NCBI RefSeq assembly: GCF_024519435.1
Contig: NZ_JALJRZ010000009.1
Coordinates: forward strand, 1 to 64,000
Source of the DNA: Terrabacter sp. Ter38
Lineage (GTDB): Bacteria; Actinomycetota; Actinomycetes; Actinomycetales; Dermatophilaceae
Length of the DNA stretch: 64,000 nt
Direction of reading: 5' to 3'
The notes under the pieces were generated by a model. That model was not told the origin of the DNA. It did no database searches and saw only the letters and a program-made list of their open reading frames with translations. Each line of letters opens with the position of its first letter. Positions within the stretch are counted from its first letter, which is position 1. The position numbers were made by a program, and so were the translations under genes. Below, piece by piece: positions 2,530-59,004 of this stretch.

Positions 2530-2553
2530 GACGGCATACGTTGGTATGCCGTC
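2530..2553. other. Perfect 10-bp hairpin between fabG and inhA
   Basis: GACGGCATAC (2530-2539) and its exact reverse complement (2544-2553) flank the loop GTTG. The structure is built from two back-to-back copies of the dispersed word CGGCATAC. There is no T-tract, so it is a poor classical terminator. It may attenuate or stabilise the fabG-inhA transcript, or be a DNA-level site. Confidence 0.6.
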
Positions 2554-2602
2554 ACGAGCGTTGTGCAGCAAGCGTGCCCACCCACACGAGAAAGTCGCAG
2601 GC

Positions 2603-3364
2603 ATGGGAATCCTCGAAGGCAAGAAGCTCCTCATCACCGGTGTCCTCATGGACAGCTCGATCGCGTTCCACGTCGCGAAGATCGCCCAGCAGGAGGGTGC
2701 GACGGTCGTCCTCACCTCGTTCGGCCGGACGATGAAGATCACCCAGACCATCGCCAAACGGCTGCCCGAGACGCCCGTCGTCATCGAGCTCGACGTCGCC
2801 GACCAGGAGCACCTGGACACCCTCGCCGAACGGCTGCGCGAGCACGTGGACGGCCTCGACGGAGTGCTGCACTCGATCGGCTTCGCGCCGCAGGGCGCCT
2901 TCAACTTCCTCGAGGGCACGTGGGAGGACGTCTCGACGGCCCTCCAGATCTCGGCGTACAGCCTCAAGTCGCTCGCGGTCGCCACCCTGCCGCTCATGTC
3001 CGAGGGCGGCAGCGTCGTCGGTCTCACGTTCGACGCGAAGTTCGCGTGGCCGGTCTACGACTGGATGGGGGTCGCCAAGGCCGCCTTCGAGTCGACGAAC
3101 CGCTACCTCGCCCGCGACCTCGGCCCCAAGGACGTGCGCTGCAACCTCGTCGCGGCGGGCCCGATCCGCACGACGGCGGCCAAGTCCATCCCTGGCTTCG
3201 AGCAGTTCGAGAAGGTCTGGGACGACCGCGCACCACTGGGCTGGGACGTCAACGACCCGGAGCCCGCGGCGAAGGCCTGTGCGGCGCTGCTCTCCGACTG
3301 GTTCCCGGCCACGACCGGCGAGATCGTCCACGTCGACGGCGGCGTCCACGCGATGGGGCAGTGA
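2603..3364 (+). CDS. inhA: Enoyl-[ACP] reductase (NADH), InhA/FabI type
   Basis: Catalyses the last reductive step of fatty acid elongation. The 253-residue protein has the atypical SDR signature of FabI/InhA: ITGVLMDSSIAFHVAK at the cofactor loop, HSIGFAPQ (Ser91, equivalent to InhA Ser94), and catalytic Tyr152 and Lys159 in VYDWMGVAKAAFEST. That spacing is closer to InhA than to enteric FabI. The start ATG at 2603 (MGILEGKKLLITG) matches family N-termini; an upstream in-frame ATG at 2546 falls inside the hairpin and was rejected. The ribosome site is weak (GAGAAAG). It is cotranscribed with fabG unless the hairpin at 2530 terminates. Confidence 0.92.
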   Translation: MGILEGKKLLITGVLMDSSIAFHVAKIAQQEGATVVLTSFGRTMKITQTIAKRLPETPVVIELDVADQEHLDTLAERLREHVDGLDGVLHSIGFAPQGAFNFLEGTWEDVSTALQISAYSLKSLAVATLPLMSEGGSVVGLTFDAKFAWPVYDWMGVAKAAFESTNRYLARDLGPKDVRCNLVAAGPIRTTAAKSIPGFEQFEKVWDDRAPLGWDVNDPEPAAKACAALLSDWFPATTGEIVHVDGGVHAMGQ

Positions 3365-3403
3365 GCGCGCAGCTCCACGGATCCTCTCGCTAGAGTCCTG
3401 CCC

Positions 3404-57512: not shown

Positions 57513-57617
57513 GGGGCGACTGTATGCCGCGGGGCCGACACCCCACGGCCGGCACCCACAGCCCGCGCACGGCACCGCCACAGGGGAGCGGGTCGCGCAG
57601 GGCATAGGGTCGAGCCC

Positions 57618-58763
57618 ATGAGCACTCCCGCCCGCCCGGACGCGTCCCACGGGTGGCGGATCGGCAGCCTTGCCGGGACCCCGGTCTACCTCGGTCGGTC
57701 CTGGCCGATCATCGCCGTGCTCATCGTCGTCGTCTTCGGGCCCAACCTGTCGAGGCCCGACCGCGGTGCCGCCTACGGCTACCTGCTGGCCTCGGCCTAC
57801 GCCCTGCTGCTGCTCGTCTCGGTGCTCGTGCACGAGGCGGCCCACGCCCTCGCCGCGCGGTGGCGGGGGCACCCTGTCAGCCGGATCGTCGCCGACGTCT
57901 GGGGCGGCCACACCGTCTACGACGCGACGCGCACGTCGCCGAGCACGACGGCCATCGTCGCCGTCGTCGGGCCGCTGTCCAACCTCGCCCTAGCCGCGGT
58001 CGTCTGGGGCCTGCGGGCCCTGACGACGAACGAGACGACGCTGACGCTGCTCGGCATCGTCGCCTTCGCCAACGTCCTCGTCGGCGTCTTCAACCTCCTC
58101 CCCGGCCTTCCCCTCGACGGCGGCCAGATCGTCAGCGCCCTCGTGTGGCGCGCCACCGGCAGCAAGGGGCGCGGCCTCGTCACGGCCGGCTGGCTGGGAC
58201 GCGTCGTCGCGGTGCTGACCGTAGGGTGGTTCGCCCTGCGTCCCCTCGCCGAGGACCGGTCGCCCGACATCTTCGACCTCGTCTGGCCGTTCGCCATCGC
58301 CTTCTTCCTCTGGCAGGGCGCGACGGGAGCCGTCCGGGCCGGTCACATCCACGAGGCGACCGCCGGACGCGCGACCGACGTGCTCGAGCCGCTGTCACTC
58401 GTCGCGGGCACGGCCACCGTGTCCGAGGTCGAGACCGCGGTGGCTGCAGGTGCCTGGGTCGCGGCAGCCGACCCGACGGGGTGGCCGCTCGGCGTCGTCG
58501 ACGCCGACTCGGCGGCCGGGGTTCCGGCCGACAGCCGGTCGCGGACGGCCATCGCGTCGGTCACGCTGGCCCAGCCGGCGTCGTGGGTCGTCGCCCTGCC
58601 CGACGACGCGGTGCTCACCGACCTCATCCGTGTCATGAGCGAGCGCGAGCTCTCGCTCGCCGTCGTCGTCGACGAGGCGACCCGCGACATCCGCGGCCTG
58701 GCGAGCGCCGAGCGGATCAACGCGGTCGTCGGCGCCGAGCTGTCGCGCCGCGGTCGTCGCTGA
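57618..58763 (+). CDS. Site-2 protease family metallopeptidase with CBS domain
   Basis: A 381-residue intramembrane protease. The catalytic motif HEAAH is at residues 71-75 in the second helix and the third ligand in [12 protein letters not shown] near 155-165; about six membrane helices. The C-terminal part (about 245-381) is a CBS-like pair ([31 protein letters not shown] and [15 protein letters not shown]). The family cleaves membrane regulators such as anti-sigma factors. The ATG at 57618 follows TAGGGT (57605-57610) by 7 nt. Confidence 0.9.
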
Positions 58764-58791
58764 CCCGACTCGACGGAGTCGCCTGCCGACG

Positions 58792-59004
58792 TCACTGCCG
58801 ATGGCGTATGCCGTCGAGCGCGCTCAGGCGCCGCGTCCCGTGACGCTCGTGTTCCCGGCGAAGGGCCCCGACGCCGGCCGCCGTCCACACCCCCTCGGCG
58901 GCTCGGTCGGGCGTCCACAGGGCCGCCACCCCGGGCAGCGAGCACGGCTCGGGCGCGTCACGGTTGGCGCAGGGCCCGACGGGCGGGCCGGAGGGAGGCA
59001 CCAT
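58792..59004 (-). CDS. Possible small protein overlapping the SSB-like start
   Basis: A 70-codon minus-strand frame ([23 protein letters not shown]...) ending [13 protein letters not shown]. Nearly all third codon positions are G or C, and no gene occupies the plus strand here. Its ATG overlaps the start codon of the SSB-like gene on the other strand. I do not recognise homology. It could be a coincidental frame in GC-rich spacer DNA. Confidence 0.35.

Follow-up and report, generated by a model that had tools for sequence, protein, structure and literature searches.

The 64-kb stretch of DNA analyzed here, referred to throughout as the window, is part of a 4.83 Mb genome (G000; 4,831,409 bases in 54 contigs) and is punctuated by copies of the octamer CGGCATAC, read on the opposite strand as GTATGCCG. 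This element, hereafter the word, is best described on either strand by the context RCGGCATAC, and by most of the sequence traits we examined it appears to behave like a DNA uptake sequence. The window holds 11 copies of CGGCATAC and 12 of GTATGCCG, with the 7-mer contained in them occurring 24 times (11 + 13); an earlier reading of the same letters, referred to as the original prediction, had arrived at about 23 octamers and 24 7-mers split 11/13, with coordinates that proved correct to within one base. Because genes were called with a simple codon model, the division between genic and intergenic copies is approximate, and two versions of the calls disagree at 19747, 33939 and 34049.

Two inverted pairs lie in the first part of the window. 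The arms of the first, a 20-bp hairpin at 2532-2551, are found at 2532..2539 on the plus strand, 10 nt past a called stop at 2521, and at 2544..2551 on the minus strand. The second, at 11202-11248 between called genes, has its arms at 11202..11209 (plus) and 11241..11248 (minus), the latter separated by 21 nt from the stop of a called minus-strand gene (11270-12001). Single copies between called genes occur on the plus strand at 8928..8935 and 30457..30464, the second of these 10 nt ahead of a called gene start, and on the minus strand at 37879..37886, 42357..42364, 55355..55362 (15 nt past a called stop at 55339), 57522..57529 and 58806..58813 (42 nt past a called stop). Three copies are genic or intergenic depending on the version of the gene calls: 19747..19754 (plus), 33939..33946 (minus) and 34049..34056 (plus). 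Within called genes the word is read as Tyr TAT followed by Ala GCC at 17987..17994, 25944..25951 and 51921..51928 (plus) and at 19047..19054 and 40536..40543 (minus), as Ala GCA followed by Tyr TAC at 14423..14430 and 38291..38298 (plus) and 24870..24877 (minus), and as GGC ATA CC, with Ile ATA, at 11656..11663 (minus). The window also contains two adjacent genes, 3404-5665 and 5999-8890, both with Mur ligase middle domains, one of the two having a TPR end and the other a cyanophycin synthase-like start.

Excess of the word and its hold on codons

The over-representation that the original prediction described in the window holds well past it. Across the whole of G000 we counted 1033 copies of CGGCATAC and 1036 of GTATGCCG, compared with 103 + 107 (210 in total) for the word read backwards, which served as the whole-genome control. 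Markov, codon and intergenic statistics were collected on a 464-kb sample composed of the window and 400 kb from contigs 1-3 of G000, and expected counts were taken from an order-3 Markov model, the comparison that the original prediction had proposed; here 206 copies were observed against 9.7 expected. Words of the same base composition average 2.7 copies each in the window, so the expectation of two to three copies given in the original prediction was sound. Composition alone is nevertheless a weak control, since among the words listed eight of the same composition reach raw counts of 24-48 in the window. When the ratio is corrected for tetranucleotide content, CGGCATAC ranks first of the 1680 same-composition words in the 464-kb sample, followed by GGCATACC and GCATACGC, which share seven and six letters with it in register, while the word ranked fourth has just 6 copies. 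A comparable excess among words of equal composition, which the original prediction had named as a test of itself, is therefore seen in the raw counts but not in the corrected ratio. Amongst octamers of any composition in this sample, CGGCATAC shows the strongest excess; of the 6615 octamers represented 20 times or more, only 14 exceed expectation more than five-fold, and 11 of these 14 are the word or in-register overlaps of it. The Markov comparison and the rank among same-composition words together rule out base composition as the cause of the excess. A logo of 205 copies shows A (45%) or G (41%) as the preceding base and otherwise little beyond codon rhythm.

Most copies in the sample lie in called genes (147, with 56 between genes and 3 across a gene edge), where they override codon preference. 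In 200 synonymous-codon shuffles of the called genes, a control also put forward in the original prediction, only 12.3 ± 3.3 copies remained, with a maximum of 22. Where the neighboring residues permit the word, Tyr is written TAT at 93 of 125 positions versus 108 of 2457 elsewhere, Ala is written GCA at 33 of 91 versus 938 of 17969, and Ile is written ATA at 13 of 79 versus 11 of 4623, such that 13 of the 24 ATA codons counted belong to the word. The claim that the word forces rare codons is thus upheld for TAT, GCA and ATA. Codon bias as a cause is rejected on the shuffling result, and it is almost inconceivable that the excess merely reflects codon pair bias or base composition: although certain GC-rich octamers, such as GTCGGCGA, do show an approximately two-fold excess from such causes, the in-gene copies outnumber the shuffled expectation far beyond this, the word is denser outside genes in G000, and relatives of similar GC content lack the excess.

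Placement, turnover and distribution

Word density in G000 is 1.08 per kb between genes and 0.36 per kb within them, a ratio of 3.0, and intergenic enrichment is clear in G000 and three relatives (G178, G015 and G200), though not in every genome. Close neighbors on opposite strands are also frequent: 12 pairs in G000 lie 12-90 bp apart, compared with 3.6 expected under even random placing, whereas same-strand neighbors 12-80 bp apart number 2 in the G000 sample. Seven of these 12 inverted pairs are intergenic and 10-29 nt from a stop, one lies in a divergent gap and four in called genes, and the three pairs that fall between convergent genes are mismatch-free stems, 16, 16 and 21 base pairs long. 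Inverted word pairs can thus be predicted to form hairpins, frequently just past stop codons, and are putatively terminator-like. An identical 37-bp perfect two-word hairpin occurs twice on contig 1 of G000 (7161 and 12580), 5.4 kb apart and in convergent gaps both times, and one close inverted pair in G200 precedes CTCTGTTTTT.

The two orientations are balanced, not only in G000 (1033 versus 1036) but also along the chromosome of G200, a relative assembled as one contig. In 20 stretches of 20 kb spaced around this chromosome we counted 153 and 151 copies in the two orientations; both were present in 19 stretches, and the remaining stretch had 0 and 2. The absence of strand bias noted in the original prediction is therefore confirmed, and the replichore comparison that it called for shows no polarity.

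Individual sites change readily between congeners. Five of the six window copies that align in G007 are kept (33939, 34049, 38291, 40536 and 42357) and the sixth, 37879, is altered by one base, while only one of seven, 38291, is kept in G001, where 33939, 34049, 37879 and 40536 carry one-base changes, and 42357 and 51921, the latter unaligned in G007, differ. Five of the seven copies not kept are thus changed by one base. These figures rest on only 6 (G007) and 7 (G001) aligned copies, and control octamers of similar A+T content are kept at rates of 0.35-0.66 in G007 and 0.24-0.45 in G001. Conversely, G007 has one word and G001 two at places where the window lacks it, these gains or losses being unpolarized. 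Totals are nevertheless steady, ranging from 1988 to 2358 copies of CGGCATAC in the eight members of the genus that are at least 99% complete, G000 included. Changing sites combined with a steady total of approximately 2000 fit a word that is kept by drive or density rather than by local function.

We surveyed 186 genomes of the family, labeled by G-numbers with genera labeled by g-numbers, and 396 genomes of the order, sampled from a larger group, 362 of which fall in 19 other families. At least 300 copies of CGGCATAC are present in 110 of the 186 family genomes, with a maximum of 4724 (G015). Among the 76 genomes with fewer than 300, eight are intermediate at 189-295 copies (G059, G060, G061, G024, G071, G027, G075 and G083) and show raised ratios or a second word; G028 has 196 copies against a control of 125. 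Word-poor species also occur inside word-rich genera, namely G065 in g52 (37 copies), G126 in g26 (19) and G150 in g69 (50). Outside the family the highest count is 180, where the control reaches 195, and the excess is therefore confined to one family. This family appears to be Intrasporangiaceae, judging from the best matches when named genomes were scanned once for the proteasomal ATPase encoded in the window (best 80 loci). Words at the proteasomal ATPase locus number 24 in Knoellia remsis, 19 in K. subterranea, 16 in K. aerolata and 0 in Janibacter anophelis, and Pedococcus bigeumensis, of a genus placed in Intrasporangiaceae by the NCBI taxonomy, has 12 in 21.7 kb. Tetrasphaera phage TJE1 carries 2 copies versus 0.6 expected, to which we attach little weight as its host's word is not established. 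Two records from the same scan (L125 and L133), titled Spirochaetaceae and Patescibacteria metagenome-assembled genome, hold an actinobacterial-looking proteasomal ATPase at 72% to the query and are possibly mixed bins.

Some related genera hold different words at similar copy number, resembling the dialects of the DNA uptake sequence (DUS). The clearest of these, CCCCTTCG, occurs 266 times in 280 kb of G132 versus 33.6 expected; there it is 2.8 times as dense between genes as within them, and 26 pairs lie close together on opposite strands versus 9.8 expected. It exceeds 1000 copies in 19 of the 186 genomes (16 of g63 and 3 of g67; G097-G112 and G131-G133), which hold just 7-41 copies of CGGCATAC, and stays at or below 396 in the rest. 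Since Janibacter anophelis has 13 copies of CCCCTTCG in 21.6 kb, one of the genera g63 and g67 is probably Janibacter. A third word, CGGCATCC, differs from CGGCATAC by one base; it reaches 41 copies versus 3.9 expected in 40 kb of G034 and exceeds 2000 in seven of the 186 genomes (G024, G071, G082, G083, G084, G085 and G034), compared with approximately 240-1340 in the others. Both words are abundant in g54, with 2195 CGGCATCC and 1217 CGGCATAC in G084 and 2099 and 1189 in G085, a pattern to be anticipated if a genome is passing from one dialect to another or if a candidate receptor accepts both. Weaker candidates, each from a 40-kb sample only, are CCGCATCG in G125 (40 versus 6.8 expected), CGTACGCC in G130 (33 versus 6.4) and CGGCGTAC in G031 (24 versus 4.9), to which CGCCGTAC in G126 may be added (173 versus 38 in 280 kb, without intergenic excess). 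The sampled loci (L209-L214; L037-L040, L099-L108) that yielded CGTACGCC and CGGCGTAC also gave ACCGCATCG in G125 and, over 280 kb, ACGCCGTACG in G126 as further candidate words, all of them from samples only.

Uptake machinery and competing functions

Based on the inverted pairs near gene ends, the family-restricted distribution and the presence of other words in related genera, we favor the interpretation that this actinobacterial lineage is naturally transformable and has the word as its DNA uptake sequence, and assign this a probability of roughly 0.6. The same three features make uptake the best supported of the options listed in the original prediction, which had named an uptake sequence, a methylation site and a protein-binding site. 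On this view the transformation apparatus would include a surface receptor with a preference for DNA bearing the word, conspecific DNA would thereby enter and recombine more often, and the word would spread and persist through this uptake bias; were the specificity of the receptor to shift, the genome would slowly be rewritten to a new dialect. Candidate receptors are the Tad/Flp pseudopilins TadE, TadF and TadG, or ComEA. The Tad pseudopilins and ComEA are singled out since Tad clusters together with ComEA/ComEC are reported to serve transformation in the actinobacterium Micrococcus luteus (PMC4322843).

Components of such a machine are widespread in the family. ComEC was found in all 30 of the 186 genomes in which it was sought, a ComEA-like gene adjoins it in G000 (judged by eye), and a T2SSE-type ATPase is present in 185 of the 186. 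There are three Tad-type loci in G000, two of which belong to classes seen in all 18 genomes compared; one of these two reads TadA-B-C-Flp-TadE-TadF-TadG followed by prfB, with names assigned by order and resemblance. The third cluster is patchy, its class being found in 7 of the 18. In the fetched part of G000 contig 1, the longest word-free gap (13 kb, 83456-96455, L005) overlaps this third cluster, and word-free accessory DNA of this kind is what an uptake tag predicts. TadE and TadF were not found in 11-kb class-3 stretches of G034, G126 and G207, stretches too short to show loss, and that of G034 holds a TadG fragment. After TadC in G034 (L242:2098-3159), a called gene consists of a run of approximately 13-residue repeats (DWQRQLFQKPLVP) and may in fact be a repeat array mistaken for coding sequence. 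In G150, word-poor within a word-rich genus, the ComEC match covers only 1-150 of 270 and is located close to one end of a contig of 8504 bases, so that nothing is inferred from it.

None of the simple determinants that we tried accounts for which genomes carry which word. The presence of ComEC or of the ATPase fails to separate word-rich from word-poor genomes, and how closely the Tad proteins match their G000 counterparts tracks kinship rather than dialect (by eye). We also reject the type IVa pilus, as its PilM family gave no match in G000 and matches in only 7 of the 186 family genomes.

A number of observations weigh against an uptake function. ComEC and Tad ATPases occur also in genomes where no word was found, and samples of 40-80 kb revealed no clear word in G009, G016, G065, G022, G086, G207 and G135. 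Intergenic ratios in seven other word-rich samples, some of them small, are 1.6, 1.3, 0.6, 2.6, 1.1, 1.9 and 0.8, and it is this range of 0.6-2.6 that limits clear enrichment to part of the genomes. Pairs in called genes or divergent gaps make up 5 of 12 in G000, 19 of 26 in G132 and 11 of 21 in G200; a single stretch repeated locally accounts for four of the 26 in G132, and the pair expectations presume an even placing that intergenic clustering violates. Word sites are not clearly better conserved than control octamers, although drive does not require conservation. We know of no uptake sequence from Gram-positive bacteria. Finally, CCCCTTCG has no clear core in common with CGGCATAC, whereas the dialects of Neisseriaceae share CTG (PMC3630211).

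Other functions would also place an octamer throughout a genome. The word may instead be a site for an abundant chromosome-organizing or segregation protein, dense along the whole chromosome and with a specificity free to change between genera, and we regard this as unlikely but the most serious of the competing explanations. The even use of both strands, a spacing with some slight regularity (clusters on contig 1 have a coefficient of variation of 0.83) and the differences at single sites between congeners would all suit such a protein, but it predicts neither the inverted pairs near stops nor the occurrence of other words in its place in related genera, and nucleoid proteins would not usually be expected to have an 8-bp site per 2.3 kb that overrides codons. 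A somewhat smaller chance attaches to a Chi-like recombination hotspot, used in break repair by an enzyme of RecBCD, AddAB or AdnAB type. Like Chi, the word is a non-palindromic octamer found every few kb, it overrides codons, and the specificity of recombination enzymes can differ between lineages; unlike Chi, it has no strand bias in G000 or G200 and occurs in inverted pairs, which, together with the intergenic excess, such a role leaves unexplained. RecC, moreover, is matched in 90 of the 186 family genomes and unmatched in 96, the latter including G000 with all but one of its eight congeners, all of these word-rich, and the four word-rich g52 genomes, yet G065, the word-poor member of g52, does have it. 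Its absence from G000 and congeners leads us to reject a RecBCD-Chi site, a conclusion that applies to RecBCD only, AdnAB and AddAB not having been searched.

We give still less credence to a modification site, whether HIP1-like, part of a restriction-modification system or a defense tag. HIP1 of cyanobacteria is likewise an octamer strongly over-represented genome-wide, but unlike CGGCATAC it is palindromic; genomes usually avoid restriction sites rather than multiply them, and neither hairpin pairs nor dialects would be explained. A polar segregation signal of the KOPS type, which would share with the word its form as a dispersed non-palindromic octamer, is contradicted by the two-way occurrence in 19 of the 20 G200 stretches and by the near-equal totals there, and we reject it as having virtually no likelihood. 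The original prediction had argued from the missing strand bias against a KOPS- or Chi-like polar signal, and the G200 replichores bear this argument out.

Comparison with known uptake systems

Uptake sequences are known from two Gram-negative families. If the word is indeed an uptake sequence, it would represent a third, independent case, in Actinomycetota and with dialects of its own, and self-tagging of DNA would be seen to arise repeatedly. It would further suggest natural transformability in a large actinobacterial family, together with the tag by which DNA is accepted there, and, as closely related genera differ in word, a comparative search for the receptor would become possible. On balance we would also lean toward this being the first self-recognition uptake sequence in a Gram-positive lineage, one served by Tad/Flp pili and ComEA/ComEC, with at least three dialects (CGGCATAC, CGGCATCC and CCCCTTCG; perhaps also CCGCATCG and ACGCCGTACG) and a receptor other than a type IVa minor pilin. 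Among open-licence papers we found none describing an uptake sequence in this actinobacterial group, and text searches for GTATGCCG, and for CGGCATAC with motif and Actinobacteria, returned no title on the topic among the matches listed. The available text of the M. luteus report (PMC4322843) does not mention an uptake sequence, and a second M. luteus paper contains none of the terms uptake sequence, uptake signal and sequence-specific (PMC8467076).

The closest parallel is the DUS of Neisseriaceae, for which copies in the thousands, terminator-linked inverted pairs and a set of dialects are reported (PMC3630211). Thousands of copies, inverted pairs and dialects between genera recur here, with CGGCATAC and CGGCATCC one base apart; on the other hand, the phylum is different, the envelope is Gram-positive, the sequence is unrelated, PilM has no match in G000, and CCCCTTCG lacks a clear core common to the other words. 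The uptake signal sequence (USS) of Pasteurellaceae (PMC12616744) resembles the word in being genome-wide and in having dialects, and its preference for own DNA is a feature only proposed here; it differs in sequence and phylum, and its proposed receptor, ComN/PpdA, is a type IV minor pilin. For the machinery, the nearest counterpart is found within the phylum: in M. luteus, transformation is reported to be served by Tad/Flp clusters and ComEA/ComEC, and the Tad layout of G000, its genes named by order and resemblance rather than by family search, is the one needed there (PMC4322843).

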